DNA of 64,000 nucleotides from Gluconobacter cerevisiae (GTDB lineage Bacteria > Pseudomonadota > Alphaproteobacteria > Acetobacterales > Acetobacteraceae): NCBI RefSeq assembly GCF_015244675.1, contig NZ_JABCQO010000004.1, forward strand, positions 124,001 to 188,000. Direction: 5' to 3'. The position numbers were made by a program, and so were the translations under genes. Numbering within the stretch: the stretch's first letter is position 1; each line of letters starts with the position of its first letter. Positions 19,599-64,000 of the stretch are shown one piece after another. Below the pieces are notes generated by a model, which saw only the letters and a program-made list of their open reading frames with translations, was not told where the DNA came from and did no database searches.

Positions 19599-19970
19599 TT
19601 ACTTCGGACGCTTCGCGCCATACAGCGAACGACGCTGACGACGCTTGGCGAGACCCTGTGTATCAAGCACACCACGCAGGATGTGATAACGGACGCCAGG
19701 AAGATCCTTCACGCGGCCACCGCGGATCAGAACAACGCTGTGTTCCTGAAGGTTATGACCTTCACCCGGAATGTAGCTCACGACCTCATACCCGTTGGTC
19801 AGACGCACCTTGGCGACCTTACGCAGAGCGGAGTTCGGCTTCTTCGGCGTTACGGTATACACACGCGTGCAAACGCCGCGCTTCTGCGGGCAGCCCTGCA
19901 GTGCGGGGACCTTGTTCCGCTTTGCGGCCGGCTCACGGCCGTTCGCGATCAACTGGTTGATGGTCGGCAT
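19599..19970 (-). CDS. rpsL: Small ribosomal subunit protein uS12
   Basis: A 123-residue uS12 at the decoding centre and the classic streptomycin-resistance locus. Seen: [60 protein letters not shown] and [20 protein letters not shown]. The [10 protein letters not shown] segment contains the Lys usually present in streptomycin-sensitive strains. It opens the str group after a 378-base gap. Confidence 0.99.
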
Positions 19971-47592: not shown

Positions 47593-50112
47593 GTGGTAAA
47601 AGTGCTGACCCAGCTTTCCCTTCGTCATCTGACCCTTCTGGGTACGTCCCTCCTTGGCTCCACGTTCGTTCTCATGACGGCGGAAAGCCGGGCTGCAACA
47701 ACACAGCCTGCTCCGGCACACTCAGCTCCAGCCACACACAAACACTCTCGCCCGGCTCCTGCGCTCGTAAAGGCGAAACCCGCTCGGACGCCAAAGCACG
47801 AGACCGAGGTTTCAGGGGGCACAGAAGCGCTTGTCGTGACGGGAACACGCGAGTTCGGCAAAAAGGCACGGGATTCGATCGCTCCTGTGGATATCGTCAC
47901 GAATCGTCAGCTGACGGGGACGGGTCAGCCCACGTTGCGTGACTCTCTGGCACTCCTGCTCCCCTCCCTGACAGTGCCAACGGGAGGATTCGATGCCGGT
48001 GCCCTGACCGACAGCATTTCGCTGCGTGGCCTTAACCCTAACGAGACGCTCGTACTTGTGGATGGCAAGCGGCGCCACACCACGGCCAATATCTACGCCG
48101 ATGGCGGACCGGCGCAGGGGTCCACACCTGTCGATATCGACATGATCCCCATGGCCATGATCGACCATATCGAAGTCCTGCGCGACGGTGCGTCCGCCCA
48201 GTATGGGTCTGACGCCATTGCGGGTGTAGTCAACATCATCCTCAAGAAGCAGAACCATGGTCTGACCATGCGCTCGAACACCGGGATCACGAGCGAAGGC
48301 GATGGTTTCCAGCAGGGCGTGTTCATTGATGGCGGCCTGAACCTGAACAATCGCGGTTTTGTCCATATTGGCGGCGATTTCGTCCATCAGGACCATACTT
48401 TCCGCTCCGGGAATGACAACCGCACCAACACCGATGTCAACCAGCTTCTGGGACAGCCCGAACAGACGCGTGAAAGCGTCGCCATCAACGCAGGCTATGA
48501 CATCACCGATGATATCCAGGCCTATGCCGGTGCGACCTATGCCCATCGCCATGCCGAATCCTATCAGAACTACCGCCTGCCCTCTTCGCTCTCCAAATAT
48601 CCCGGCTACGCGGCGATCTACCCTTATGGCTATTCCCCCATCGAGGCTCTGGAAGAAGACGACTACGAACTGACGGCTGGTCTGAAAGGCACTTTGGCGG
48701 GCTGGCACTGGGACGTATCGTCGGTTTTCGGTCGGGACTATGATGCGGTGAACGCCGAGAGCACCACGAATGTGGGACTGTATACAGCCACGGGCGAGAC
48801 CCCGACATCGTTCGCCGCACAGGCCTATAACAACACGCAATGGACAAACAGCGTGGACCTGAGCCGCAAGTTCCGCACGTCGTTCTGGCCGTATGCCATC
48901 AACGTTGCGGGCGGTGCGTCCTATCGCTATGAGGCCTATGCGATCGGAACCGGCTCTCCGGCCAGCTATACCTATTCCAGCTCGGACGCCTTTCCCGGCA
49001 CCAACCCGGCCAATGCTGGAAAATGGTCCCGGGATGTTGCGGCGGGCTATCTCGACATCTCTACCAACCTGATGAAGCACTGGCAGGTCGATCTGGCCGG
49101 ACGCGTCGAGCACTACACAGATGTCGGCAACACCAAGACCGGCAAGATCTCGACCCGTTATGATTTCAGTCCGCGCTTTGCGATCCGTGGCACGTTCAGC
49201 AATGGCTTCCATGCCCCGACGCTGGCACAGGAGCATTATTCCGCGCTGTCCGTCTCGCCGACCGCTGCCAGCGGCATCATCGCAGCGAACTCCCCCGGAG
49301 CACTCGCCAACGGCGCATCAGCATTGAAATCGGAATCCTCCACGAGTGCCGAAGGCGGTATCATCGTCGAGCCGGTCAAGAAGCTGCACGTCACTGTCGA
49401 TGTGTATCAGATCGACCTGCGGAACCGGATTATGCCGGGTGGGTCCATCTACGGATCTCAGGCTCATAGCGCGCTTGAGATGGACGGGTTCAATCTTCCC
49501 CCGGGATCTGGAAGCTGGACGGGTAGCCAGCTTGCCACACACTGGTTTGCCAATGTCGCCAATACGAGGACGCAGGGACTTGATCTGAGTGCGACCTACC
49601 CGACCGATTTTGGACGTTATGGTCATGCGGACTGGGATGTTGCGATCAACCTGAACCGCACGCGCCTGCGTCATCAGGCCAGCAGCTCGACCGGAGCGCC
49701 ACTTCTGACCGCACAGTCGATCGCTTACATCACCACGGCTTATCCGCGCAGCAAGATCATCTTCGGTGGCACCTGGCGTTCTGCCGCCAACAAATGGGCA
49801 GTCTCGGTTCACGAAATCCGTTACGGCGAGACGACGTCTCAGCTGACCTATTACACGGGTCCTTATAGCTTTTCCTCAAGCCACTATCGGGAGTTCCCAA
49901 ATCTACCGAAATGGACGACGAATGCCTCCGTGACTTACAATATCACGCCCAAATGGAGTGCTACCATCGGGGGTAACAACATCTTCGCCAAGTTCCCGTC
50001 AGTTGTTCCTGAAGGAAACCGCTATCTCGGCGTACCCAAGTACTACATGAGCACATCGCAGCTCGGGATGAATGGTGGCTATTATTATCTGGACGTTTCA
50101 GCGCGCTTCTGA
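47593..50112 (+). CDS. TonB-dependent outer-membrane receptor, GTG start
   Basis: An 839-residue beta-barrel receptor that imports ligands through TonB energy. A signal peptide (about 1-34, LLGTSLLGSTFVLMTAESRA) is followed by a Pro/Ala/His-rich linker (about 35-75), a TonB-box-like EALVVTGTRE segment (about 76-85), the plug with DSISLRGLNPNETLVLVDGK and IDHIEVLRDGASAQYGSDAI then AGVVNIILKK, and a barrel ending YYYLDVSARF with the terminal Phe. Start GTG at 47593 is weakly supported; GTG 47602 is an alternative. The ligand is unknown; the plug lacks any clear siderophore hint. Divergent from the royal-jelly-like gene, perhaps functionally paired. Confidence 0.9.
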   Translation: MVKVLTQLSLRHLTLLGTSLLGSTFVLMTAESRAATTQPAPAHSAPATHKHSRPAPALVKAKPARTPKHETEVSGGTEALVVTGTREFGKKARDSIAPVDIVTNRQLTGTGQPTLRDSLALLLPSLTVPTGGFDAGALTDSISLRGLNPNETLVLVDGKRRHTTANIYADGGPAQGSTPVDIDMIPMAMIDHIEVLRDGASAQYGSDAIAGVVNIILKKQNHGLTMRSNTGITSEGDGFQQGVFIDGGLNLNNRGFVHIGGDFVHQDHTFRSGNDNRTNTDVNQLLGQPEQTRESVAINAGYDITDDIQAYAGATYAHRHAESYQNYRLPSSLSKYPGYAAIYPYGYSPIEALEEDDYELTAGLKGTLAGWHWDVSSVFGRDYDAVNAESTTNVGLYTATGETPTSFAAQAYNNTQWTNSVDLSRKFRTSFWPYAINVAGGASYRYEAYAIGTGSPASYTYSSSDAFPGTNPANAGKWSRDVAAGYLDISTNLMKHWQVDLAGRVEHYTDVGNTKTGKISTRYDFSPRFAIRGTFSNGFHAPTLAQEHYSALSVSPTAASGIIAANSPGALANGASALKSESSTSAEGGIIVEPVKKLHVTVDVYQIDLRNRIMPGGSIYGSQAHSALEMDGFNLPPGSGSWTGSQLATHWFANVANTRTQGLDLSATYPTDFGRYGHADWDVAINLNRTRLRHQASSSTGAPLLTAQSIAYITTAYPRSKIIFGGTWRSAANKWAVSVHEIRYGETTSQLTYYTGPYSFSSSHYREFPNLPKWTTNASVTYNITPKWSATIGGNNIFAKFPSVVPEGNRYLGVPKYYMSTSQLGMNGGYYYLDVSARF

Positions 50113-50121
50113 TCGTCCTCC

Positions 50122-50149
50122 GGCAATGCGGAAAATATGCCGCATTGCC
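50122..50149. terminator. Stem-loop between converging receptor and holA genes
   Basis: GGCAATGCGG and CCGCATTGCC form a perfect ten-base stem with an eight-base loop, nine bases after the receptor stop. No T run follows on either strand; convergent position favours a termination or 3'-end stabilising role. Confidence 0.55.
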
Positions 50150-50167
50150 CGCCCCAATCTGTAAAAA

Positions 50168-51172
50168 TCAGGCTTTGCGGATTGTACAGAGAGAAGCGAT
50201 ATGGCGTCTGCACAATGCCATATCGGGAGATGCGCTCTGTTTGCAGGCCAGTTCGAAAGCCTGCGTTTCCCGTGCCGCCTGTTCAAGTGCCGCAAGAGAC
50301 CAGCGATCCAACGCCTGACCGAAAGCGGCCGTACGTTTGAAAAACACAGGTGGTTTCAGGGATTTCATGGCTTCGGCACGTCCCTGCCCGTCCTGCACAG
50401 CCTGCGCAACTTTCTGGAGCCGCACAAGAACGCCCAGAACAGTTCGCGCCACCGCTACGGGATTTGCACCATCGGCCAATGCCCGTTCGAGCGCCTGATC
50501 GGCCATCATGCGGTTTCCGCACAGAGCTGAAAACGCGGCATCTTCCAGTGAATTTCCACCGGCATCGCCAACACAGTCCTGAACGGACGACAGATCAAGA
50601 CGACCATTGGGACCGGCATACAGCAGAAGTTTTTCGACTTCGCCACGAACACCACTGCGGTCAGCGCCCAACACACCCAGTAGCCAGATGAGGGCATCGC
50701 GATCGATTGTGACACCCGCCTGCGCGAGTGCTTCTGTCACGGTCTGGGAAAGAACCCGTCCTTCTTCAGGATAGCAGGCGATGGACGCAACCTGCTTGTG
50801 GGCTTCAGCCAATGCGCGGAGCTTCGAGCGAGCCGTGATTCCCGGAGCTTCAATAACGACCAGAGCATCTGTTGTCGTATCCAGCACACGCTTGAACAGA
50901 GGCGCCAGACTGTCCTGCCCATCACGCACCCAGACGACACGCCGCCCCCCAATCAACGAAAGCGCGGTGGCTTCCTCTTCAAGACGGTCCTGCGTTTCCC
51001 GGTCTAGCTGCGCCACCTGAAACGGATCATCCGTCGTTCCTGCAACCCGTCTGACCGCCTGCGCGGCCCGTTCCCGAATAAGGCCCGTATCTTCCCCATG
51101 AAGCACGATGGCCCGCCAGAAACCGGCATCGTCCAGTGTGCGCCCGATATTTCGTGCGTCGATTTTCACCAC
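50168..51172 (-). CDS. holA: DNA polymerase III delta subunit, GTG start
   Basis: A 334-residue clamp-loader subunit that opens the beta clamp. Seen: ARNIGRTLDDAGFWRAIVLH, GEDTGLIRERAAQAVRRVAG, LSLIGGRRVVWVRDGQDSLA and LRALAEAHKQVASIACYPEE. AAA+ core followed by a helical collar domain. The start is one of two tandem GTG codons (51172 or 51169), directly abutting the lptE stop TAA. Last gene of the DUF3576-leuS-lptE-holA operon, a layout typical of alphaproteobacteria. Confidence 0.92.
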   Translation of the reverse strand: MVKIDARNIGRTLDDAGFWRAIVLHGEDTGLIRERAAQAVRRVAGTTDDPFQVAQLDRETQDRLEEEATALSLIGGRRVVWVRDGQDSLAPLFKRVLDTTTDALVVIEAPGITARSKLRALAEAHKQVASIACYPEEGRVLSQTVTEALAQAGVTIDRDALIWLLGVLGADRSGVRGEVEKLLLYAGPNGRLDLSSVQDCVGDAGGNSLEDAAFSALCGNRMMADQALERALADGANPVAVARTVLGVLVRLQKVAQAVQDGQGRAEAMKSLKPPVFFKRTAAFGQALDRWSLAALEQAARETQAFELACKQSASPDMALCRRHIASLCTIRKA

Positions 51173-51847
51173 TTACTGGGCGGAGGTGCTGGTCGTACTG
51201 TGGGAAAGACGACCGGTGGCAGATGCCGGGAAGCCGTCAACGCCCGTTCGATCCGTCGCTGCGTTGCCGTTGTCGTCTGGCATCCGGTCTGTATTCAGAT
51301 AACGCGGCAGTTCGTCAGGAGCGGCTTTCTCGGGCATGTTATGATTACGGAACCAGATCGCGAGCTGCTGCGTCACGGTCTGGGCCAACGTGTCAGAAAC
51401 ACGCGCCTGAAGGGTTTCGTCATTCAGGGTCTGGGCAAAATACTGCTCGAAACTTGTGTTGAAACCGTCCAGCGTCGTCGCATCCCCCTGCGCCAGCATG
51501 CGCGGATTCTGCTCCACCGTTATAAGAACCCAGTGCGCCGAACCTGTGCTTCGCGTTCGGCCGGACGTATTGTCCTGATGGATGTCGACCGCTTCCTCAT
51601 TCATGCCGGAATAGACTTTCAGCATGTACTTATGAGGATCTTCCGGCCCGGCACCCGCCAGATTTTTCTGCAAAGCCAGACGCAGCAGCTGGCCATAACG
51701 CCCCGGAATGTTGTCCACATAAACTTGGGCCAACTCTTCCGACATATCGGATTTCGGGGTCAGCTTTCCATAGAGGGGTGAGAAACCACACCCCCCTAAC
51801 AAAAGGAAAGCCGTGAGCAGAAAAGTACCGCGACGGTCAGACATCAT
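51173..51847 (-). CDS. lptE: LPS-assembly lipoprotein LptE
   Basis: A 224-residue outer-membrane lipoprotein that plugs LptD for LPS insertion. Signal peptide with lipobox LLGGC (Cys about 20) followed by GFSPLYG, the family hallmark; [20 protein letters not shown] and LMVKVYS-like [13 protein letters not shown] follow. The C-terminal 40 residues are Ser/Thr-rich and probably disordered. Its ATG overlaps the leuS stop by four bases. The position between leuS and holA is the conserved one. Confidence 0.9.
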
Positions 51848-54441
51848 CCGGCAACCACGAAGTTGACGATCCGGTTCGGGACATGAATTTCCTTTACCAG
51901 ACGCTTTCCTTCAAGAAGACGGGCCACGTTTGGCTCGCTTTTAGCTGCGGCAAGCACCTCGTCCTTCGGTGCATCTGGCGGGACTTCGATAGTCCCACGC
52001 AGCTTGCCAAGGATCTGCACGCCAATCGTCACGCTCTGGACGGCAACCCATTGCTCCTCCGGCTCAGGCCAGGGGCGATCCACAACCAGCGCACTTCCCG
52101 GCTCGAGAACTGCCATCATGTCTTCCGCAAGATGCGGCATCATCGGCGCGGTCAGCAGGCACAGGACACGCGCGGCTTCTCGACGGGCCGCAGCGATACC
52201 GTCTCCCTCGAGACGCTCGGCCTCAGCCAGTGCCGAGGTCAATTCATGCAGACGCGCCACGGCAACGTTCGGCGTAAAGGCTTCGAGCGCTTCACCTACA
52301 GCGGCGATGGTCCGATGTGTGATACGACGCAGATCTTCCCCCGCAACGCCATGGACGCTCTCGACCGCATCACGACCCGCAACAGAAGCAACCAATCGGT
52401 GAAGTCTCTGACCGAAACGGGCCGCCGCCGCGACACCGGAGGCCGTCCACTCCATATCCCTTTCAGGCGGGCTGTCGGACAGAACGAACCATCGGGCCGT
52501 GTCGGCGCCATAGTGCTCAATGATGTCGACGGGCGACACCGTATTGCGCTTGGATTTGGACATTTTTTCGGAACGGCCGATCTGAACAGCCGCACCCGTG
52601 TCCCGCCGCACAACCGTGTCACCACGACGCTCGACTTCTTCAGGATACAGCCAGCCGCTCTCGTCACGGTAGCTTTCATGCGTCACCATGCCCTGAGTGA
52701 AGAGACCGGCAAACGGTTCGTCCACATCCAGATGGCCGGTTTCATGCATGGCTCGGGTGAAGAACCGTGCGTAGAGCAGATGCAAGATCGCATGCTCGAT
52801 GCCGCCGATATACTGATCAACGGGCAGCCAGCCATTCGCTGCCGCCGGCACCGTCGGGGTCTCGGCATGGGGGCTGGTGAAACGGGCAAAATACCAGGAA
52901 CTGTCAACGAAGGTGTCGAACGTATCAGTCTCGCGAACAGCAGGCTTGCCGCAATGCGGACAGTTTACATGCTTCCAGGTCGGGTGATGGTCGAGCGGAT
53001 TCCCGGGGCGGTCAAAGGTCACGTCTTCCGGCAGGATGACGGGAAGCTGGTCGTCGGGAACAGGAACCGGACCACAAGTCTCGCAGTGAATGATGGGGAT
53101 CGGGCAGCCCCAGTAGCGCTGGCGGGAGATGCCCCAATCACGCAGACGCCAGTTCACGACGCCTTTTCCGGCTCCCAGACCTTCGAGACGCTCGATCACC
53201 TTCGTGCGGGCGGTCGCCGGGTCCATTCCATCCAGAAAACCTGAATTGAACAAGGCCGCATCGCCAGAAACAGCCTTCTTACCCAAAACGAAGGTCTCGG
53301 CATCCTGCCCCGCAGGCAGCAGGACCTGCGGAACAGGCAGGCCGTATTTACGGGCAAAATCAAGATCGCGCTGGTCGCCACAGGGGCAGCCGAAAACGGC
53401 GCCTGTGCCGTAATCCATCAGAACGAAATTGGCGATCCAGACGGGAGCCGTCTTTTCCGGGTCCAGAGGATTTGCGACACGTAGTCCGGTATCAAAACCA
53501 CGTTTTTCCGCAGCTTCGATGACTTCTTCCGACGTTCCGAGACGACGGCATTCTTCAATAAAGGCGGCCGCCTGCGGGTTACGCTCGGCAACCTTGCGCG
53601 CCAGAGGATGTTCCGCCGAAATTCCGACGAAGCTGAGACCGAACAGCGTGTCAGGGCGTGTCGTGAAGACTTCGATGCTGTCCAGATCCGCGTCATAGCC
53701 GCCAGGTGGCTGATGCAGGGCAAAACGAACCCGCGCGCCTTCGGACCGGCCAATCCAGCGCTCCTGCATCGTCCGCACGCGCTCTGGCCAACGATCCAGC
53801 GTTTTGAGATCATCCAGCAGCGGCTGGGCAAATTTTGTAATCTTCAGGAACCACTGAGAGAGCTTCTTTTTCTCAATCAGGGCTCCCGAACGCCAGCCGC
53901 GGCCATCTACGACCTGCTCGTTCGCAAGAACTGTTTCGTCAACCGGGTCCCAGTTGACCAAGGAATCACGGCGCTCAACCAGTCCAGCCGACAGCATGTC
54001 GACGAACAGCTTCTGCTGTTTGCCGTAATATTCGGGGAGGCAGGTTGCGATTTCACGATCCCAGTCCAGCGAAAAACCAAGACGCTGGAGCGTGCCGCGC
54101 ATGGCTGCGATGTTATCCATCGTCCATTTGCCGGGATGAACATTTCGCTCACGTGCCGCATTTTCTGCTGGAAGGCCGAAGGCATCCCAACCCATCGGGT
54201 GCATGACGGCAAAGCCGCGGGCCCGCTTGTAACGCGCAACTACGTCCCCGAGCGTATAGTTCCGCACATGTCCGACGTGAAGCTGCCCGGACGGATACGG
54301 AAACATTTCCAGCACGTAGTATTTCGGACGGTCGGCCGGAGGGACGTCAGGAACGGCAAAAGTATTCCGGCGCTTCCATTCGTTCTGCCAGAAGGGCTCG
54401 CGGTTCTGGAAATCGAATGCGGGGGCTGGGGTATCGTTCAT
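51844..54441 (-). CDS. leuS: Leucyl-tRNA synthetase
   Basis: An 865-residue class I synthetase charging tRNA-Leu. HIGH motif as HVGH in [20 protein letters not shown], the CP1 editing domain with a TTRPDT motif ([20 protein letters not shown]), a zinc-like cluster CETCGP...CPHCGKP, the KMSKS loop as [20 protein letters not shown], and a C-terminal anticodon domain. The frame extends to 54477, but the ATG at 54441 lies just after the stop of the DUF3576 gene and is preferred. Confidence 0.97.
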
Positions 54442-54448
54442 GTCTGGC

Positions 54449-54967
54449 TCAGTTGTCCCGCTCGCCATTTTCGGCACGCAACTGACGCGCGCGCGTCAGG
54501 ATACGGGTGGTGATGTCGGAGGTTGTGGTGGCGGAGACCGGGGTATCTTCCCACTGGCCATCCTGAAGAACCTGCCGGAAGACGGAAACCCGCAGGGCAT
54601 CCGAACGCAGGCGGCGGTCCAGAACGTAGGCCGCAATTTTGAAACGCTCGTTCTGAGTGGCGGAAGGCTGGTACCAGTCCGTCAGGATGACACCACCCAC
54701 GGCATCGGCAGACGCCAGCGGCATGAACGACAGCGTATCGATCGCGCCGCGCCACAAATAGGCATTCACCCCGCCACGAAGCTCGTCGGCACCGCCTTCG
54801 GCTCCACGATCCACACCCAGAAGATGATTGCGCGGGGCAGTCAGAGTGCTGGGATCGCGTCCACCGCCGCAGGCGGAAAGTGCACTGAGAGCCAGACATC
54901 CAAGGGCAAGACGGGCCGCTGGTCGGTGAAAGGGTCGAAGAACGGTCAACTGGATGCGAGACATCAT
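54449..54967 (-). CDS. DUF3576 lipoprotein
   Basis: A 172-residue predicted lipoprotein; signal with lipobox LSAC (Cys about 33) then GGGRDPS. The mature domain ([75 protein letters not shown]) is the DUF3576 domain found in alphaproteobacteria, commonly upstream of leuS. Function unknown; envelope location and operon with lptE suggest an outer-membrane role. Met1 and Met2 are both possible. Confidence 0.9.
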
Positions 54968-55099
54968 GGGTGGTCCTGCGGGCCGCGCCAGGGCCGGTCA
55001 CAAGCAAGGATACAGACTGGCGAGGCCTGTAGCCGGCAACTTCTTGAGTGTTCATATCGCGCCGACGGCGCAAGGCCAAGCGCCTGACGGAAGATGTTC

Positions 55100-57208
55100 C
55101 TATCCGGCAGCCAAACCTGCCTTGCTCAGCACCTCAGCCAGTCTTGCCTGCTGCACAGGTTTTGCAAATGCGAACCGGCTGACAACTCTGGAAACTGTCA
55201 GGTCAGGCACCAAACGAAGAAGGTGCCGACAGGCCTGATGAGCCTCATCCGGAAAAGCTCCCAGTTCAGTCAACGCGACAAGATAGTACACCAGAGCGCT
55301 CGGACAGGATGGATACAGGCCAGACATCAACCGCCCCATAGAGATGACTTCTTGATACTCTTGGCCCAACAACAGAATCATCATGAAGGCAGGTCGCAGG
55401 AGTTCAAGGAACTGCGAACGGCACCCATTTTGCAGAAGAATTTTTACGTTGCGAATAGCTGGCTTTGTCTCTCCCCGTAGAAGCTCCAGAATAATATCAG
55501 CCATCAGACTGTCAGGAGAATCTTTTTGATTCCCTTCATTGCAGGAGATGCGCTCAATAGCATCCTGAACGACTGATACAGCTGTACTGTGACTTGCAGG
55601 ATCATACATCAGATACGCAGCCAGCAGGACTTCAACTGCGTGCGTATCCGGCATAAGTGAGATCGCAGCCCGCACACTACGCAGGCCACGAGAGAAGAGA
55701 GCCTCCGCTTCGGCACTCCATTCATTTTGAAAACGTACATAGCAGTACATCGCATCAATAAGAGCGATGGTTCCGTCGGTCTTTTCAAGACCCTCCGCAT
55801 CGTTCAGCAGAAAGTCAATTTTTTTAAAAAACGACGAATCATGCTTTAAAAGGAGGGTGAAAGCCCTCAATGCCATACCCAGCGGCGACAGCTCCATGTC
55901 AGGACGTCCTGCCGTGCGCCGGGCCTCAGCAACAAAAATACTCCACTGCATGGCCTGTGCCGGGGTCAACATGCTGCTTCGGGCCTGATCAGATCCAGAA
56001 GATGGGAAATCGTAATGCGTTCCCCAGATGATAACACCGTTGCGTCGTGCATCGAGCACGCGAAGGATCAGACGATTTTCGGCACCATCTTCCCCGCCAC
56101 GCAGACTTGTGGAGATGACGTAGTCTGCCCCAAGAGCCTGATAGGCCGCCACGGCGTTCACCGGGTCCGAAAGGGAAATATCGGGAACTGCGACGATATC
56201 AAAGGTTCCCATGCTTACAAACATGAGTTCCAACTGGTCTCGGAAAAGCTGTCCACATTGTAAAAGCTTTTCATCGAAACATATTGGTGCCTGAAAAATC
56301 AGGGAGATTTTTCGGGACTCTGTGCCAGAAGGATTACGGGCAGCATAATGCAACGGCAAGACCAACATGGGGTCTGGCCGGGGCATAGACATCGAAAAAG
56401 ACGCATCTGAAGTGGGTGCGGACGAGGTTGCCTGAGAGATATCTCTCGACAGCTCTCTACTGGCGCTCTCTATTCCGATACCACTAATCAGCGCCTGTGT
56501 AGTCGGGGCCAATATATGCCCTTCGACATTTCCGAGCACACTCGTCATCTGCTCGACAAGCGCAGCCGCGCGCACGTGGTCCCCACGGTGAAGAGCCGTC
56601 TGTATTCTGGTGCGCCAGGCAACCTCACTGAAGCTGTCGAACTTCAAAAGGCGCTCAGCCATCTCCGCAACCTGATCCGGATCCGTAAACTCCCGGACAG
56701 CACTTTCATAAAGCTGTTGAAGATGGCCGGTGAGTCGCTCTCTTTGCTGGGTAATCCATTCGTCTAATGCCGGATCAACACCAATCAACTCTCCAAGAAG
56801 CGGCTCATCTGACCAGACCACACTGTCGATCGTTCGAAGACTAGCCGTCAGAAGTCTTTCGGCATCTACCGATGTCAGGGCTGGTTTGAGGGCGAGTGAA
56901 TGCCGCTGAACGTCGATGACATCCACACCCAGCGGGCTCAACGCGTCCAGAAGGCGATGAATTTCTTGCCTGAGAGAAGCACGGGCCATGTCTTCGGGCC
57001 TTTGACTCCACAACAATTCAGCAAGACGGGACCGCAGAACGGGCTTGCGGTCAGATAGAGCCAGAATTGCCAGGAGAGCACGCGTCTTCCCACCCACAGG
57101 AAGCACACTGTCTCCCATGAGGGTCTTCGCTTCCATCTGCCCAATCAGCTTCAGACGCAGAAGAGTGGGGTCAGTCTCTCTGACCTGACGGGACAGACTA
57201 TCCATCAT
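55100..57208 (-). CDS. SARP/BTAD-type transcriptional regulator with TolB-like middle region
   Basis: A 702-residue regulator. Residues about 18-110 are an AfsR/SARP-like winged helix (GGKTRALLAILALSDRKPVL, SRLAELLWSQRPEDMARASL, RQEIHRLLDAL). Residues about 125-225 resemble the BTAD helical repeats. Residues about 280-400 look TolB/FlgO-like (QALGADYVISTSLRGGEDGA, then RLILRVLDARRNGVIIWGTH). The last 300 residues are helical repeats (TPR-like). The ATG at 57208 has GGGAG nine bases upstream; a GTG lies eight codons earlier. No metabolic gene cluster is beside it, so its target is unknown. Similar architecture is best known from Actinobacteria, but exists in proteobacteria. Confidence 0.8.
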   Translation of the reverse strand: MMDSLSRQVRETDPTLLRLKLIGQMEAKTLMGDSVLPVGGKTRALLAILALSDRKPVLRSRLAELLWSQRPEDMARASLRQEIHRLLDALSPLGVDVIDVQRHSLALKPALTSVDAERLLTASLRTIDSVVWSDEPLLGELIGVDPALDEWITQQRERLTGHLQQLYESAVREFTDPDQVAEMAERLLKFDSFSEVAWRTRIQTALHRGDHVRAAALVEQMTSVLGNVEGHILAPTTQALISGIGIESASRELSRDISQATSSAPTSDASFSMSMPRPDPMLVLPLHYAARNPSGTESRKISLIFQAPICFDEKLLQCGQLFRDQLELMFVSMGTFDIVAVPDISLSDPVNAVAAYQALGADYVISTSLRGGEDGAENRLILRVLDARRNGVIIWGTHYDFPSSGSDQARSSMLTPAQAMQWSIFVAEARRTAGRPDMELSPLGMALRAFTLLLKHDSSFFKKIDFLLNDAEGLEKTDGTIALIDAMYCYVRFQNEWSAEAEALFSRGLRSVRAAISLMPDTHAVEVLLAAYLMYDPASHSTAVSVVQDAIERISCNEGNQKDSPDSLMADIILELLRGETKPAIRNVKILLQNGCRSQFLELLRPAFMMILLLGQEYQEVISMGRLMSGLYPSCPSALVYYLVALTELGAFPDEAHQACRHLLRLVPDLTVSRVVSRFAFAKPVQQARLAEVLSKAGLAAG

Positions 57209-57655
57209 CTTTATTGCTCCCACGATCAGCACCCCAGATCCAAAAGCAGAGAGCTTTCAAGCCACTTCAACGCAACATCACAAGCAACGCAGATCATGGC
57301 AATTTTCAACCCAGTCAAACCTGTCCCCTGGCCAGAGAGATATTCTGTAGGATGACAGATGCGAACGCGCTCTATCCTACTCAGGATTTGGCACTACCAG
57401 AAAAATAATCACCCTTTGATAAAAAAAAGCGTAGCGCAAAGCCGTAACAGAAACCTCGATAACAAGAATACCCGGAAAAAGTTTAAATAGCCTAAACAAA
57501 CGCTACCATTCTTTTTTCATCCACACATCTCGTCCCTGCAGGTCCAGATTTTCCGCTTTTCCATTAACAATTTACAGCTTGCGATATCTGTGGTGCGTTT
57601 GTGGCGCAGGCATGGTTGCACAAACAGAGAAACCACAATATGTTCAAGGAGGTTT
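57209..57655. other. A/T-rich gap between the SARP regulator and the tRNA gene
   Basis: 447 bases without a supported gene. It should hold promoters in both directions: minus for the SARP gene and plus for the intron-bearing tRNA. A run of eight A (about 57421-57428) and T6 near 57511 are noted. I could not assign a -35/-10 pair with confidence. Confidence 0.5.
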
Positions 57656-57968
57656 GTCCGCGTAGCTCAGCAGGATAGAGCACAGGATTCCTAAGGCTTT
57701 AGAATTGGGCGCCATGATGGGAAACCGCATGGTGGATTTGCTCAAATTCGGGGAACGCTCTGATCATCTCGATCGTGCCAATCCCGAGCCAAGCGTTCTG
57801 GTGCGCTGGAACGAAGGTGTAGAGACTGTACGGGCAACACCTTGGCTATGTTATTCGTAGCTGTGGTGAAGAGACAGTCCAGACCACAAACATGCCTTGC
57901 GGCATGGCGGTGAAAACCGAAGTGGTAAGAATCCTGGGGCCGGAGGTTCGAATCCTCTCGCGGACACC
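57656..57968 (+). tRNA. tRNA-Arg(CCU) interrupted by a group I intron, CCA encoded
   Basis: The two exons (57656-57692 and 57929-57968) join to a 77-nt tRNA. Acceptor GTCCGCG pairs with CGCGGAC; D-stem GCTC/GAGC; anticodon stem CAGGA/TCCTG with loop TTCCTAA, giving anticodon CCU; five-base variable loop GGGCC; T-arm GGAGG-TTCGAAT-CCTCT with one G-U pair; discriminator A, then encoded CCA. It reads AGG codons. The split lies directly after the anticodon (CCU|AA), the same place as the group I intron known from the Agrobacterium tRNA-Arg(CCU) gene. This will be missed or mis-called by scanners that do not allow long introns. Confidence 0.93.
57693..57928 (+). other. Group I (IC3-like) self-splicing intron, 236 nt, no ORF
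   Basis: Bounded by a 5' exon ending in U (CCU) and an intron ending in G (...GGTAAG), as group I rules demand. The guide GGG at 57707-57709 can pair with exon CCU, giving the U-G splice pair. P2 is CCATG/CATGG with an inner GG-GAAA-CC tetraloop (57712-57732). The core stretch AAGGTGTAGAGACTG (57814-57828) closely matches my memory of the Azoarcus tRNA-Ile intron. P7 GACTG pairs with CAGTC (about 57824-57828 and 57875-57879). P8 is GCTATG/CGTAGC (57845-57861). P9 is ACCAC/GTGGT with inner hairpins, one GAAA-capped. No homing endonuclease is encoded. Confidence 0.9.
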
Positions 57969-58404
57969 ATACACAAAGTATCCTTACAAAACTGCTGTTT
58001 TCCTCTGATATTTCACAATCCGAGGGCTACATTTCACAGCGATAATCTGCGCTATGATTTCTCTTGCCAGTTCTTCCCAAGCTTATGACCCCTTGATGGG
58101 ATTGAGCAAAGAAGATGAACGCCTCTTTTTCGCGAAGAACCACAGCAGGTTGCGGGTGGAAAACCCACACATTCCGAGCGGAAACATTGCAGCCGACCAC
58201 AATGGAATATCTCTGAGTTTCTTCATGACCGACCAGTCAGGCCAGTGACCACACAAAGGCAGTAACCCTGCCCGACCGCCCGCGATAGTTGCTGGCGGAA
58301 CGGAACGTGTCGTCATTCGCTCGACAGGCAGTCTACCGTCTTCTTCTCCATCATCCCCTTCGCTGAAACCGTCATGTTCCGGCTACGAACCTTGAGTTGA
58401 TTGC
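57969..58404. other. Gap between the tRNA gene and the Lrp-type gene
   Basis: 436 bases. Two short open frames (58054-58248 on + and 58083-58316 on -) overlap each other on opposite strands. Neither has a recognisable family, membrane pattern or clear Shine-Dalgarno. Nothing convincing was identified; decayed DNA next to a tRNA is possible. Confidence 0.4.
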
Positions 58405-58863
58405 TCATACAGGTAGTCTGCCAGACCGTTTGATTTCACGGATCGAGAAATGCGTATGCATTTCTTTGATGCATCCCAGCATCCGGATCTGTCGCATGGA
58501 TAGTGCGTGAAAATCCTCCATGTCCCGCACTATTATTTGCAGCAGATAGTCATATTTCCCCGAGACATTATGACAGGCAATCACTCCGGGCATTTCCGAA
58601 ACTGCTTTTTCAAATCCGGTCATCGTTTCTTCGGAATGGTCATCGAGCATGATGCTGAGGAACGCGAAAAGATTAAGGCCGAGCGCCTTTGAGTCCAGCT
58701 CCGCATGATATCTCACGATACAGTCGGCTTCCAGTCGCTTCAGTCGTTTCCAGCAGGCGGGCGCGGAGATACCGATCCTCTGCGCCAGATCGCTGTTACT
58801 CAGGCGTCCATCCGCCTGCAGAACCCGTAAAATCATACGGTCGATCTGATCCAGTTTTATCAT
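58405..58863 (-). CDS. Lrp/AsnC-family transcriptional regulator
   Basis: A 152-residue regulator. N-terminal helix-turn-helix: KLDQIDRMILRVLQADGRLS, NSDLAQRIGISAPACWKRLK, then RLEADCIVRYHAELDSKALG. C-terminal RAM ligand domain: VSEMPGVIACHNVSGKYDYL, LQIIVRDMEDFHALSMRQIR. Such proteins sense amino acids. It is divergent, with a 101-base gap, from a broken PLP-dependent sulfur amino-acid lyase gene, so it probably evolved to control that gene, as DecR-type regulators do for cysteine degradation. Confidence 0.92.
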   Translation of the reverse strand: MIKLDQIDRMILRVLQADGRLSNSDLAQRIGISAPACWKRLKRLEADCIVRYHAELDSKALGLNLFAFLSIMLDDHSEETMTGFEKAVSEMPGVIACHNVSGKYDYLLQIIVRDMEDFHALSMRQIRMLGCIKEMHTHFSIREIKRSGRLPV

Positions 58864-58964
58864 TCACTCAAGTTAATATTCTTTCTCATAGACGTCCATG
58901 AATCCATGTTTTTGAAAGCACATTTTGCCAGAAACTTCCTACGTTCGCAGGGAATGGAGGCAAA
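58864..58964. promoter_or_regulatory. Divergent promoter of the Lrp-type gene and the lyase pseudogene
   Basis: A 101-base A/T-rich gap. It includes a good GGAGG Shine-Dalgarno (58956-58960) for the plus-strand gene. Binding sites for the Lrp-type protein are expected here. Confidence 0.45.
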
Positions 58965-60137
58965 ATGCCTAATAAAATGAATGATCGCACATTTTTAGCT
59001 CACGCTGCTGTCAATCCATCGGAGCATCACGGCTTTATCAATCCCGCTATCTATCGCGGTTCGACCGTTGCGTTCCCTAACGTTGCTGCTCTGGCAGGCG
59101 GGAAGCAACCCTACCGTTATGGCCGCTGAGGCAATCCAACCTCAACTGCACTTTGTGATGCTCTCAGCGCTCTGGAAAGAGCTACCGGCACGCTGCTCTG
59201 TCCATCTGGCCTGACGGCCTGCAGCACGGCGATCCTGGGGGTTTGCGGTGCAGGCGATCATCTGCTCGTCCCTGACAGCGTTTACGGCCCGGTCCGGCAT
59301 TTCTGCGATACTGCGGCGCGACGGATGGATATCGAAACCACCTATTACGATCCCCGCGTCGGGGCTGCCATTGCTGAGTTATTTCAGCCTAACACGCGGG
59401 CTGTTTTCCTCGAATCCCCCGGCTCCGGCACGTTCGAAATCCAGGATGTTCCCGCTATCGCAGCCGTAGCCCATCAGCGTGATATCTGCGTTCTGATGGA
59501 TAACAGTTGGGCAACACCTCTGTTTCTGAAACCACTGGAACTGGGTGTTGATATTTCCATCATGGCCGCCACGAAATATATCGGCGGTCATTCCGACGTG
59601 ATGCTGGGCACGATTGCCTGCGGCCCCCGTGCGTGGGAGCAGGTCAGAGACATGCATTTCCAGCTTGGCCAGTTCGTCGGGCCAGACGATGTGACACTCG
59701 TTCTGCGCGGATTTCGTACCCTTGATGTCCGGCTGCAACGGCATCAGGAGAGTGCGTTGACCATGGCCCTCTGGTTGGAACAACGGCCGGACGTTTCGCA
59801 CGTCTTTTACCCTCCCCTCCCCTCTCACCCGGATCATGCTCTATGGCGGCGGGATTTCCGTGGGGCCAGCGGCTTGTTGTCATTCGTGACCCGCAATTCG
59901 TCATCGGAAGCCGTAGCAGCCATGATTGACGGGTTGAAGCTGTTCACGATCGGGTACAGCTGGGGTGGATTCGAAAGTCTGGTGTTGCCCGTAAGTCCCC
60001 GTTCCATGCGGACGGCAACACAATGGACAGAAACCGGACATCTCATATGGCTGCATATCGGCCTGGAAGACGTTGATGATCTGATAGCCGACCTAGAAGA
60101 GGGGTTCAGTCGGTTCAGAGATATCTCCGGCCACTGA
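58965..60137 (+). pseudogene. Cystathionine beta-lyase-like (MetC) gene with in-frame TGA at codon 55
   Basis: A 390-codon frame of the Cys/Met-metabolism PLP enzyme family. It starts MPNKMNDRTFLAHAAVNPSE after a strong GGAGG. Codon 55 is TGA (59127-59129), inside the conserved YGR-x-GNPTS motif where Arg or a similar residue is usual; CGA to TGA is a single transition. The rest is intact: LLCPSGLTACSTAILGV, LMDNSWATPLFLKP (Asp about 179), SIMAATKYIGGHSDVMLG with the PLP lysine at about residue 204, and SWGGFESLVLP. Without read-through only a 54-residue fragment is made; internal restart at Met121 would lack the N-terminal part. Lack of other damage suggests a recent mutation, read-through, or a sequence error. 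Confidence 0.85.
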
Positions 60138-60339
60138 GAACGGCCTGCCGTAAATCGCGTGCTTTCCCCTATCGGGCGTCACGCACGCAGAGAGGCACAT
60201 GCGATCATACGGAAAATGTTTCTGGCAAACATACCGAGCAATGATCATCTGATTTTTTTAGGGTTGCGCTGCGATATATTTTTATTTTCGGCCCATCTGC
60301 TGCATAGAGAGCAAACCTCAACCTCAAGGAATCATTCTG

Positions 60340-61563
60340 TTGCACAAAAACCGGATGACGCTGCTCATTCTTGCCGCAATGATACTGGGAAGTCTGCTCG
60401 GGGGTGTTGCGCATGCGTTTTTCCCAGATCCCGCAACCCAGCAGTTGATTGCGGGGAACCTTTCGATCGGTTCAACCGTGTTTTTGCGGCTTATCAAGAT
60501 GATTTTGGCCCCTCTGATTTTCTCAACACTCGTTGTAGGGATCGGTCATATGTCTGATGCTGCAGCGGTTGGCAGGATCGGCGGCAAGGCTATGCTGTGG
60601 TTTGTCTGTGCGTCATTGTTCTCTCTTACTCTCGGCCTGATACTCGTAAATATTTTCCAGCCCGGCGTGGGCATGCACAAAGTCAACACGCTAGCAGATA
60701 CTCATCTGGCAGCTCATTCTCTGACTTTAAACGGCTTTATCCAGCATATGGTCCCGGATTCCATTTTCCGCGCAATGGCGGATAATGAAATTCTTCAGAT
60801 TGTCGTTTTTTCAATTTTCTTTGGGATTGCCTGCGCATCCCTGCCCGCTAAAGCGAAAGTCGTTCTGGAGTGGACGGAAAGCCTGTCGCATATTATTTTG
60901 CGGGTGACAGGATACGTCATGATGGTTGCCCCTTTGGCCGTTTTCTGCGCCATGGCGGCCACTGTTACAACGAACGGATTTTCCATTTTAAGCATCTACG
61001 GAAAATTCATGGGTGAGTTCTATCTCGCGCTCGCAATTCTCTGGGCCTCGCTGATTGGCGTTGCGTTTGCTTTCCTTGGCAAACAAGCCAGAAAACTGAT
61101 CGACCTGATGCGTGAACCATTCCTTCTGGCATTCTCAACGGCGAGTTCAGAGGCTGCGTATCCGCTCATTCTGGAGCAGTTGGGCAAGTTGCCCGTATCT
61201 CGAAAGGTCTCGTCTTTCGTCCTGCCGCTTGGATATTCCTTCAATCTTGATGGCACGATGATGTACTGCACCTTTGCCAGTATATTTATTGCGCAGGCGT
61301 ACGATATTGCATTGCCCTGGAGCACTCAGATTACCATGCTCTTTGTGCTGATGCTGACAAGCAAAGGCATGGCAGGAATTCCGCGAGCATCTTCCGTCGT
61401 AATTGTCGCAACACTTGGACAGTTCAACATTCCGGAAGAGGGAATTTTGTTGATCCTCGGCATCGACACGTTTCTGGATATGGGGCGATCCGCCACCAAT
61501 GTGATCGGAAATTCTTTGGCCGCAGCAGTGATCGATAAATGGGAAACACGACGCCTTATCTAG
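60340..61563 (+). CDS. Dicarboxylate/amino-acid:cation symporter (DAACS family), TTG start
   Basis: A 407-residue membrane transporter of the GltP/DctA fold. N-terminal helix MTLLILAAMILGSLLGGVAH, then VFLRLIKMILAPLIFSTLVV, the first re-entrant-loop motif STASSEAAYPLILEQLGKLP, GYSFNLDGTMMY in TM7, and GRSATNVIGNSLAAAVIDKW in TM8. These match the C4-dicarboxylate/glutamate branch, and GYSFNLDGT resembles DctA-like members. The start is TTG at 60340 with AAGGA nine bases upstream; an ATG five codons in (60355) is an alternative. It follows the broken lyase gene by 202 bases on the same strand. Confidence 0.92.
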   Translation: MHKNRMTLLILAAMILGSLLGGVAHAFFPDPATQQLIAGNLSIGSTVFLRLIKMILAPLIFSTLVVGIGHMSDAAAVGRIGGKAMLWFVCASLFSLTLGLILVNIFQPGVGMHKVNTLADTHLAAHSLTLNGFIQHMVPDSIFRAMADNEILQIVVFSIFFGIACASLPAKAKVVLEWTESLSHIILRVTGYVMMVAPLAVFCAMAATVTTNGFSILSIYGKFMGEFYLALAILWASLIGVAFAFLGKQARKLIDLMREPFLLAFSTASSEAAYPLILEQLGKLPVSRKVSSFVLPLGYSFNLDGTMMYCTFASIFIAQAYDIALPWSTQITMLFVLMLTSKGMAGIPRASSVVIVATLGQFNIPEEGILLILGIDTFLDMGRSATNVIGNSLAAAVIDKWETRRLI

Positions 61564-61641
61564 ACTCAGGACTCATTCTTTTTTGCGCGGGTAAGAAGCC
61601 TTTGCCGCCAGCCTGCCAAAAGTCGAATGGTTGTGGCAGGT

Positions 61642-61680
61642 TCTGGCCCGTTCGAAACCAATGAGTTCAAACGGGCCAGA
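61642..61680. terminator. Long inverted repeat between convergent symporter and NADH dehydrogenase genes
   Basis: TCTGGCCCGTTCGAA and TTCAAACGGGCCAGA pair over 14 of 15 positions with a nine-base loop. It lies 78 bases after the symporter stop and just before the end of the converging gene. No T run, but convergent placement favours a bidirectional 3'-end element. Confidence 0.6.
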
Positions 61681-61687
61681 TAGATCA

Positions 61688-62980
61688 TTAGTCCAGCCGA
61701 ATGGAAGGGCGGACAAAGCCTTCCACCCAGTCTGAGAAAAACGAGATCAGGCCGCGATAGTATCCGAACAGTTCGATTTGGTGCTGACGATACAGCATAA
61801 TATGCCCCAGCCTCGCCGACAGGCCGTGAGAAAATCCACCACCCCAGACAGTTCCTCCCGGTAGGGCAGCCCAGCCGTTGTATTTGCCCAGCGCCACGAT
61901 AGCACCCTTATTATGGAAGATGCATCCTGGCACATCCCGTCCATGCTCGATCCAGGCTGGCAGATGCCGCCCCAGATGATTGGCCTGCTGTCGGGCAACC
62001 TGTGCCGTAGCTGGCAAAGGATCGTCTTCGATGAACGAGCAGTCTCCCATGACGAAGATATTTGGATCATCCTTCGACGAAAGATTGCTGTTGACCAAGA
62101 GCTGTCCTGACCGGTTCAGTGACAGACCGCCATAAGTCTGCGTGACCTGCGGAGCTTTCACGCCAGCAGCCCAGACACGAAGTTTGGCCGGAACATGTGT
62201 GCCATCCTTGAGAATGAAACCGTCGGCATCCGCTCCGGCAACACGGGCACTCGTTCGGACCGTGACGCCAATCCGCTCCAGTTCATTTTTGGCAGCTTCA
62301 GAGACTGATTCAGGGAAAGCGGGCAAAATACGCGCCCCGGACTGCAGCAGCGTGACATGCAGCTTGGGGGGAGTCCGGCCGAAAGCATGCAGGCTGTAGG
62401 GATCTACAATATCAAGTGCTTTGTGGAGTTCCGCCGCAAGCTGCGTCCCCGTTGCACCTCCGCCGACAATCGCGATATCCAGTTCCGAAGTATTGGCGAA
62501 CGCCTTTAGTAATTCCATACGGAATTTTTCATTGAAGTGGTTGGCATCGACTAGGTTATCGATCGGCAGGCAATGCTCCTTTACGCCTGGCGTGCCGAAA
62601 TCGTTGGCACAACTCCCAATCGCCAACACCAGTGCGTCATAGCGCAGGGTTCGGCTATCCAGTACGAGGGTACCATCCGAAGCATAAAACGGACTAAGAA
62701 CTACTTCCTTCTTATCCCTGTCAACCGAAACGACCTCTCCGGGCCAGAATTCAAAATGATACCGGCTGGCCTGCGTGATAAAACTGACGCGGTCGTTTTC
62801 ATTCAGAACGGTTCCGGCAGCGAAGCAGTGCAGCATCGGTTTCCAGACATGGGAAAAGCTTTTGTCAATGAGGGTAACGCGGGCTTTGCCGCGCTTGCCA
62901 AGGGATTTTCCCAACTGGGTCGCCAGTGAGAGTCCGGCCACCCCTCCGCCAACAATCAGAATTTCAGGACGAGACGTCAT
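61688..62980 (-). CDS. ndh: Type II NADH dehydrogenase (NDH-2)
   Basis: A 430-residue membrane-associated flavoprotein that passes electrons from NADH to ubiquinone without pumping protons. N-terminal FAD motif ILIVGGGVAGLSLATQLG, second NADH motif IAIVGGGATGTQLAAELHKA, then VWAAGVKAPQVTQTYGGLSL, the third FAD contact FVMGDCSFIEDDPLPATAQV, and the C-terminal membrane-binding part with GHIMLYRQHQIELFGYYRGL. The frame stays open to a TTG at 63100; ATG 62980 (MTSRPEILIVGGG) gives the family N-terminus, with only a weak GAGG upstream; ATG 63025 cannot be excluded. NDH-2 is the main NADH oxidase in acetic acid bacteria. Confidence 0.92.
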   Translation of the reverse strand: MTSRPEILIVGGGVAGLSLATQLGKSLGKRGKARVTLIDKSFSHVWKPMLHCFAAGTVLNENDRVSFITQASRYHFEFWPGEVVSVDRDKKEVVLSPFYASDGTLVLDSRTLRYDALVLAIGSCANDFGTPGVKEHCLPIDNLVDANHFNEKFRMELLKAFANTSELDIAIVGGGATGTQLAAELHKALDIVDPYSLHAFGRTPPKLHVTLLQSGARILPAFPESVSEAAKNELERIGVTVRTSARVAGADADGFILKDGTHVPAKLRVWAAGVKAPQVTQTYGGLSLNRSGQLLVNSNLSSKDDPNIFVMGDCSFIEDDPLPATAQVARQQANHLGRHLPAWIEHGRDVPGCIFHNKGAIVALGKYNGWAALPGGTVWGGGFSHGLSARLGHIMLYRQHQIELFGYYRGLISFFSDWVEGFVRPSIRLD

Positions 62981-63138
62981 TGGTTTACAAGCCTCTGTTT
63001 GCACGGCTCCTGCCACAAAAACCATATTTACCTGAGTAGAAGGGGTTTTTTCTGGCACGCTGAAAGCTCCGGATGACGAAGCGTTATCCGCTGGCTTCAA
63101 GATTCATGCGTTTTTCTTGAGAAAGGTCCGTCAGGCCA

Positions 63139-63172
63139 ACTCCGGGCGTCATGCGTGATCAGACGCCGGAGT
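63139..63172. repeat. Inverted repeat in the ALDH-ndh gap
   Basis: ACTCCGG(G)CGTC and GACGCCGGAGT pair over eleven positions with one bulge and an 11-base loop. It lies between the dehydrogenase (-) and ndh (-). No T run follows on the minus strand. Confidence 0.5.
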
Positions 63173-63176
63173 CAGA

Positions 63177-63207
63177 GGGGAATGGAAATACTTCCATCCC
63201 CCTTTTT
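63177..63207. other. Hairpin with T5 on the plus strand after the ALDH gene
   Basis: GGGGAATGGAA and TTCCATCCCC pair with one bulged A around ATAC and run into CTTTTT on the plus strand. The neighbouring genes are on the minus strand, where the tail is CTCTGACT, so its role as a terminator is uncertain. Confidence 0.45.
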
Positions 63208-63209
63208 CA

Positions 63210-64000
63210 TTACAGTGGAGCGTCAATATCAACGATGTTGATCAGCTTGTGATTGACGAATTCTTTAATACCCAGACCGATCAGTTCACGACCAAAGCCG
63301 GAGTTCTTGATGCCCCCGAATGGCAGGTCTGCCTTGGGAATGAGCGGATGGTTGATGAACACCATACCCGTCCGGATGCGAGATGCCACATGTGCGCCAC
63401 GGGTTTCATCCTTCGTAAAAACGGCACCACCCAGCCCATAGGGGGAGTCGTTTGCGATGCGTACCGCGTCATCTTCGTCCTTGGCGCGATAAAGCTGCGT
63501 CACCGGCCCAAAGAATTCCCAGTGCCGGGCTGCATTGTTGCCATCCAGTCCCGTCATCAGCAGGGGACGGAAGAAAGAGCCTTTTTCTGGTACGGGTGCA
63601 CCAATGACCTCAACCTTCGCACCATGCTTTCTGGCCTCTTCGACCTGACGTTCCAAATCGTCCTTCGCGCCCTGAGAACAGACAGGTGCAAGCGTTGTCG
63701 CTGGATTCATTGGGTCGCCAGCCTTCAGCTCGGCAACACCCTTCTTATATAATTCCAGAAAACGGTCATAAACGGCGTCTGCCACGATAAGGCGCTTGGC
63801 GGATACACAGACCTGGCCTGCATTCCAATGGCGTCCAATCACCGCAAATTTTGCCGCCTTTTCAACGTCTGCATCGTCCAGAACGATGAAAGCATCTGCC
63901 CCACCCAGTTCCATCATGGATTTCTTGAGTGCTTTGCCAGCCGTAGCGGCGATGATGGTACCAGCCCCTTCGGAGCCCGTCAGCGCAACGCCAACAACAC
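63210..64000 (-). CDS. NAD(P)-dependent aldehyde dehydrogenase, succinate-semialdehyde type, 5' end cut by window
   Basis: The C-terminal 263 or so residues of an aldehyde dehydrogenase; the frame is open to the window edge and the start lies outside. Seen: ALTGSEGAGTIIAATAGKAL, the ELGGADAFIVLDDADVEKAA motif with catalytic Glu, NAGQVCVSAKRLIV with the catalytic Cys, EFFGPVTQLYRAKDEDDAVR, and PFGGIKNSGFGRELIGLGIK. The GSEGAG and the KADLPFGGIKNSG patterns fit the succinate-semialdehyde dehydrogenase group, but acetic acid bacteria have many related enzymes, so the substrate is inferred. Confidence 0.9.
   Translation of the reverse strand, partial: VVGVALTGSEGAGTIIAATAGKALKKSMMELGGADAFIVLDDADVEKAAKFAVIGRHWNAGQVCVSAKRLIVADAVYDRFLELYKKGVAELKAGDPMNPATTLAPVCSQGAKDDLERQVEEARKHGAKVEVIGAPVPEKGSFFRPLLMTGLDGNNAARHWEFFGPVTQLYRAKDEDDAVRIANDSPYGLGGAVFTKDETRGAHVASRIRTGMVFINHPLIPKADLPFGGIKNSGFGRELIGLGIKEFVNHKLINIVDIDAPL

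Follow-up and report, generated by a model that had tools for sequence, protein, structure and literature searches.

An interrupted tRNA-Arg(CCU) gene

The window, by which we mean the whole 64,000-nucleotide stretch of Gluconobacter cerevisiae DNA that was analysed, contains a tRNA-Arg(CCU) gene that is split in its anticodon loop (Table 1). When introns were allowed, ARAGORN read a 77-nt tRNA-Arg(cct) with a 237-nt intron after gene base 37, which corresponds to U36; when introns were disallowed, it called no tRNA in the whole window. The insertion site is between U36 and A37 of the sole detected tRNA-Arg(CCU) gene. The edges of the intron read AAGGCT...GGTAAG, and all six frames of the insert are broken by a stop, the longest open run being about 61 codons. 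An intron-blind tRNA scan misses this gene, leaving a genome that would appear to be without a tRNA-Arg(CCU), and this gap in annotation is now closed.

The initial annotation had proposed an ORF-less group I intron in this anticodon loop, and the ARAGORN reading, the match to the Rfam model and the conserved fold described below all agree with that identification. Its boundaries required adjustment. The insert had been given as 236 nt ending in G, but the 236-nt version ends in A and the true intron is one nucleotide longer. Similarly, the proposal of a 77-nt tRNA with an encoded CCA was right, and ARAGORN indeed reads it as tRNA-Arg(cct) once 237 nt are treated as intron, but the proposed join of 57692 to 57929 makes the anticodon loop one G too long. 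The true junction is 57692/57930; with it the anticodon loop reads UUCCUAA, G becomes the last base of the insert, and CCA is encoded.

Table 1. Features of the interrupted tRNA-Arg(CCU) gene in the window, and of a second interrupted tRNA gene in another Gluconobacter genome
Feature	Position	Strand	Evidence
5' exon of tRNA-Arg(CCU), up to U36	57656..57692	+	ARAGORN with introns allowed
P1, exon strand CCU, with U.G at the 5' splice site	57690..57692	+	Pairs invariant in 26 of 26 rows
Group I intron, 237 nt, ORF-less, terminal G at 57929	57693..57929	+	ARAGORN, RF00028, covariation
Internal guide sequence GGG (P1, intron strand)	57707..57709	+	Invariant in 26 rows
P2 hairpin with GAAA tip	57710..57734	+	7 lower pairs, 4 changed on both sides
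P3, 5' strand (partner 57832-57837)	57738..57743	+	6 pairs, 3 changed on both sides
P4 (57747-57752 with 57783-57788) around P5 and P5a	57747..57788	+	P4 and P5 invariant; 3 of 4 P5a pairs changed on both sides
P6 and P6a	57789..57817	+	P6 invariant; P6a paired in 93% of cells, with two-sided changes in 4 of 5 pairs
P7, 5' strand; forms a pseudoknot with P3 and, by homology, binds guanosine	57824..57829	+	Invariant in 26 rows
P3, 3' strand	57832..57837	+	Covariation count
P8 hairpin	57838..57868	+	Two-sided changes in 5 of 7 pairs, counting its two parts
P7, 3' strand	57874..57879	+	Invariant in 26 rows
P9 with inner hairpins P9.1 and P9.2 (GAAA loop)	57883..57926	+	Pairs changed on both sides: P9.1 4 of 5, P9 1 of 5, P9.2 1 of 4
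3' exon of tRNA-Arg(CCU), encoded CCA at 57967-57969	57930..57969	+	ARAGORN and sequence
Interrupted tRNA-Lys(UUU), locus L083, genome G020, contig C19	1458-1745	minus	tRNA caller

Scans detected nothing promoter-like near the gene; the single terminator-like site lies on the opposite strand, and shuffled sequences match this number. The neighbouring gene (window 55100-57232, minus strand) had been labelled a SARP gene; a Pfam search at E 0.001 gave no match, and the label is unconfirmed. The anticodon-loop sequence TTCCTAA occurs at 57 sites in the genome, too many to be informative.

Covariance model and conserved fold

In the Rfam check suggested at the outset, the covariance model RF00028 matched the insert from 57690 to 57902 over the full model (1-253), with 47.6 bits and an E-value of 4.3e-11. 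By E-value this is a match, although the score falls short of the curated cut-off of 50 bits, and a search of positions 50000-64000 at the curated cut-off accordingly reported nothing. This cut-off is strict for introns of this sort, since the tRNA-Arg(CCU) intron of Agrobacterium tumefaciens MEJ076 (L309) scores just 33.3 bits and lies below it too. The window intron is the sole RF00028 match in its genome at E <= 0.001. Folding of the single sequence gave a modestly low energy (z -2.49, with 4 of 200 shuffles folding equally well), which is weak evidence; the strong evidence is comparative.

For the comparison, the gene was aligned from 26 Gluconobacter genomes and the standard group I helices, including the P3/P7 pseudoknot, were written by hand on the first row. 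The guide GGG, the capped P2, and P7, P8 and P9, all named in the initial annotation, could be placed in the 26-row alignment. Over the intron helices P2 to P9 (61 pairs, 26 rows), 98.7% of cells hold standard pairs, a figure biased in favour of the fold because one of the aligned rows served to draw the structure, and 25 pairs have changed on both sides. Controls in which the partner was slid by 1-3 columns were paired in 32-44% of cells, with 1-5 pairs changed on both sides. None of 500 shuffles reached the observed percentage, the count of two-sided changes or the covariation score; the count of pair types stands out less clearly, being reached by 36 of 500. When the tRNA stems and P1 were added, 99.0% of cells were paired and 28 pairs had changed on both sides.

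The real support for the fold is the two-sided changes, which fall mostly in P2, P3, P5a, P6a, P8 and P9.1. P1, P4, P5, P6 and P7 are invariant within the genus and therefore receive no covariation support there. In the core from P3 to P8, with its P3/P7 pseudoknot, P3 and P8 have two-sided changes, and P4, P6 and P7 pair without variation. The letters at the splice sites are conserved as well: U36, the guide GGG, the AUU before the guide and the terminal G of the intron are the same in 26 of 26 rows, as are the U.G pair at the 5' splice site and the two C-G pairs beside it. The AUU could pair with AAU of the 3' exon as P10. In its core the intron probably resembles the Azoarcus tRNA-Ile(CAU) ribozyme, a member of subgroup IC3 that is inserted after U36, and by homology the window intron presumably also belongs to IC3. 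The Azoarcus ribozyme differs in interrupting another tRNA, and the window intron has a P9 with two inner hairpins.

Distribution in Gluconobacter and the Acetobacteraceae

A query made of the tRNA and intron matched all 26 Gluconobacter genomes, and in every one ARAGORN read a tRNA-Arg(cct) interrupted at the same site by 223-240 nt of intron. Identity at the locus tracks LeuS identity over the relatives (Spearman 0.83, n=25), and the 5' neighbour of the gene is conserved in 20 of 25 relatives; therefore the intron has been inherited within the genus, descending with the host genome. Within the genus, one ribozyme is available in 26 naturally occurring versions.

Across the family, matches to an exact core pattern turned up in 143 of 397 genomes, representing 52 of 102 genera; such a pattern undercounts, and these figures are lower bounds. 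The reversed pattern, used as a control, gave no match among the matches listed. A pattern for the uninterrupted tRNA-Arg(CCU) gene (junction GATTCCTAATC) was present in 191 of the 397 family genomes and in none of the 14 genus members in this sample. Ten uninterrupted genes that we compared are identical to the joined exons of the window at 65-68 of 77 positions and have the same junction, so that intronless alleles carry the junction predicted for the spliced tRNA. With sister species that have and lack the insert, the spread of such short introns becomes testable. Searches with the window intron matched six plasmid records (four from Bradyrhizobium, two from Tritonibacter) at 69-71% identity, and in a phage collection gave one 39-base match, located in the tRNA part.

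Proposed splicing and alternative explanations

Taken together, the feature is almost certainly an ORF-less group I intron of the alphaproteobacterial tRNA-Arg(CCU) lineage that interrupts the sole detected tRNA-Arg(CCU) gene. The placement in this lineage follows the insertion after U36 of tRNA-Arg(CCU) and the clustering with the Agrobacterium intron in a weakly supported tree (see below). Very probably, to judge from its relatives, the intron cuts itself out of the pre-tRNA. By homology, folding of the pre-tRNA would bring the guide GGG and the CCU of the 5' exon together, with their U.G pair marking the splice site; a guanosine docked in P7 would attack after U36; and the freed U36 would then attack after the terminal G, joining the exons into the 77-nt tRNA and releasing the 237-nt intron. 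We infer that this chemistry would also operate in Gluconobacter cerevisiae, perhaps with a protein assisting.

Splicing had been called probably essential in the initial annotation. In support of this, the tRNA-model search and ARAGORN found no second tRNA-Arg(CCU) in the genome, which is in 40 contigs and could conceivably hide a further copy. However, the other arginine tRNAs (UCU, CCG and two ACG) include tRNA-Arg(UCU), and essentiality remains conditional because this tRNA may in principle read AGG. The same tRNA is the starting point for a different explanation, in which the gene is a decayed tRNA with a dead intron and AGG is read by tRNA-Arg(UCU); the rarity of AGG (9 of 308 arginine codons in 11 ORFs of the window) would suit it. 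We consider this extremely improbable, since, across the 26 genomes, 99.2-100% of cells in the four tRNA stems are paired and the intron fold is likewise kept, with its 25 pairs changed on both sides, implying selection on both.

Recent horizontal arrival in Gluconobacter cerevisiae, in place of inheritance in the genus, would fit the patchy occurrence in the family, where the core pattern and the intronless allele occur in the numbers of genomes given above (143 and 191 of 397). It is nevertheless very unlikely given that 26 of 26 genus members have the intron, that its divergence follows LeuS (rho 0.83) and that 20 of 25 relatives keep the 5' neighbour. The likelihood that the insert is instead a bulge-helix-bulge type intron removed by protein enzymes is practically negligible: the anticodon loop is a site of such introns as well, but the full-length RF00028 match, the group I splice-site letters with the guide, and the bacterial host all argue for group I chemistry. 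Bulge-helix-bulge introns are described as the archaeal kind in PMC6125680.

The tRNA-model search of the genome gave 47 matches, of which 46 were read by ARAGORN from their loci. The 47th (L048 273-346, contig C18) scores 29.3 bits at a cut-off of 29, has no ARAGORN call and is perhaps a tRNA remnant.

Relation to known introns

A group I intron in tRNA-Arg(CCU) of Agrobacterium tumefaciens was reportedly described by Reinhold-Hurek and Shub in 1992, and Paquin et al. 1999, to go by the title in a reference list, is said to concern sporadic tRNA-Arg(CCU) introns, their transfer and transposition. The claim that the window intron occupies the same site holds, in that the tRNA caller puts the Agrobacterium tumefaciens MEJ076 intron at the same place. 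The introns of Agrobacterium tumefaciens and other alphaproteobacteria share with that of the window the tRNA, the position after U36, a similar length (223 nt in L309) and one cluster of the tree; they are unlike it in sequence divergence and loop lengths, and we saw no difference in kind.

The window feature is already known in kind and in its bacterial group. In Table 1 of a 2015 Asaia paper (PMC4596401), five of six Acetobacteraceae genomes, including Gluconobacter oxydans 621H, are marked as having one tRNA(Arg) that a group I intron homologue interrupts, which overturns the suggestion that such an intron may be undescribed in acetic-acid bacteria. These homologues, from Asaia, Acetobacter, Gluconobacter, Komagataeibacter and Gluconacetobacter, belong to the same family, and one to the same genus, as the window intron, and section 3.1 of that paper, which gives no sequence, anticodon, site or structure, indicates no difference in kind. 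The BbgpI intron of Bartonella bacilliformis, likewise hosted by tRNA-Arg(CCU) but in a different order, self-splices in vitro and is spliced in vivo according to PMC7717549, whereas splicing of the window intron is predicted from sequence. Group I introns have also been placed in fMet and Ile2 tRNAs (PMC8450103). Those assigned to tRNA-Lys, Gly and Arg in cyanobacteria are 22-49 nt long in PMC5733544, and we judge them too short for a group I core because of this length. In a literature search without most subscription journals, and from partial texts, we found no clear earlier report of a full-size intron in tRNA-Lys(UUU), in a phage tRNA or in an archaeal tRNA-Asn. Cases of these three types, described below, are better leads than the window feature.

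Related introns in other tRNA genes

To survey related introns, a script sought a tRNA around each match to the core pattern. Outside the genus, 130 of 136 family matches among those listed could be placed in a tRNA and six were unplaced. Those placed, again among the matches listed, comprise 99 in tRNA-Arg(CCU) after U36, 20 in tRNA-Leu(UAA) after U34, four in tRNA-Thr(GGU), two each in tRNA-Lys(UUU) and tRNA-Asn(GUU), and three single cases; the doubtful single cases are L110, with an 837-nt insert, and L394, read as Ile. Named records gave at least 118 matches, with at least 33 in tRNA-Leu(UAA), at least 19 in CAU tRNAs, at least 18 in tRNA-Arg(CCU), at least seven in tRNA-Asn(GUU) and 30 unplaced among the matches listed, besides several single calls with long inserts that are doubtful. 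Viral contigs gave at least 120 core matches, of which, among those listed, 41 were placed in a tRNA and 79 were unplaced. As a control, the caller was run at randomly chosen places under the tree's length and score filter and made 0 calls in 298.

The tree was built from the placed calls: 246 of 258 had introns of at most 300 nt and a score of at least 18, and 238 of these were distinct. In the FastTree phylogeny the host label needs 20 changes, compared with a mean of 94 when labels are shuffled, and the 135 tRNA-Arg(CCU) introns need two label changes, compared with a shuffled mean of 77. On this tree, in which 97 of 235 inner branches are weak, the introns appear mostly to stay with one tRNA and now and then to move between tRNAs. 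The related introns occupy seven anticodon contexts, each seen at least four times. We give about even chances to the broader proposal that the window intron is a member of an anticodon-loop family, most placed ones being 185-270 nt long, that is still moving between tRNA genes and between bacterial genera, through phages and in some archaea. If that were true, an intron arriving in a single-copy tRNA gene would make its ribozyme indispensable at once.

A second intron in tRNA-Lys(UUU) of one Gluconobacter genome

One Gluconobacter genome (G020; 99% complete, 2% contamination) has a second, 212-nt intron that splits tRNA-Lys(UUU) between U35 and U36 (locus L083). RF00028 scores 34.2 bits on this intron. 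A 23-base pattern for the intact tRNA-Lys junction was present in 25 of the 26 genus genomes and absent from G020 alone, at up to two mismatches; by this pattern search the interrupted gene is the sole detected tRNA-Lys(UUU) of G020. The joined exons include the 76-nt tRNA-Lys of the window genome unchanged, and the flanking sequence aligns with that of other genus members (up to 89% over 1,262 bases). Contamination is unlikely because the exons are those of the genus and the flank matches its members.

The introns closest to that of L083 are in tRNA-Lys(UUU) of two genomes from another genus of the family (91%), followed by one in tRNA-Arg from a third genus (84% over 142 bases), while the tRNA-Arg introns of its own genus reach up to 76% over 187 bases. 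These similarities point to an intron that has moved between genera and was acquired separately, into a tRNA gene that would then have become dependent on splicing. The route of movement may have been reverse splicing or recombination.

Phage and archaeal-labelled contigs

Three viral contigs carry a tRNA-Leu(UAA) interrupted after U34 by an intron of about 200 nt: L134 (about 7297-7580), with tail and baseplate genes, where RF00028 scores 63.1 bits; and L142 (10090-10283, minus strand) and L188 (9567-9762, minus strand), both with rIIA/rIIB genes and 56.9 bits. Cyanophage S-CAM4 has an uninterrupted tRNA-Leu that is 89% identical to the L134 exons over two pieces; a position-by-position comparison with the joined L134 tRNA (58 of 85) was set aside as the lengths differ. 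The isolated jumbo phage Atu_ph07 of Agrobacterium (MF403008.1, L478) has, at about 1189-1550 of the locus, an unannotated tRNA-Leu(taa) that ARAGORN reads with a 278-nt insert; RF00028 gave no match on this locus at E 0.001. Related introns in phage tRNA genes contrast with a 2014 review (PMC3984707), which places all phage group I introns known at that date in protein genes.

On two contigs from records titled Candidatus Pacearchaeota (L248 and L261), tRNA-Asn(GUU) is interrupted between positions 35 and 36, by 258 nt in L248 and 423 nt in L261. RF00028 scores 83.1 bits on L248 and has no match on L261 at E 0.001. The L261 contig fits its archaeal label because of a Taw3-like gene, itself below its curated cut-off, and the L248 contig has an MnmA match; the archaeal assignment of both may reflect binning errors. 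A 70-aa frame in an archaeal-contig intron looked HNH-like by eye, had no Pfam match at 0.1 and is therefore not taken to be an endonuclease. These occurrences in tRNA genes contrast with a 2018 survey (PMC6125680) that gives 39 archaeal group I introns, all in rRNA genes, and leaves out its IA2 and IC3 hits, which might not be archaeal.

The L134 intron, used as a query, also matches Pelagibacter phage HTVC120P (MH598807.1) at 19653-19807, inside a feature annotated as capsid protein. This match and the unplaced viral core matches are perhaps introns of the same family in protein genes.
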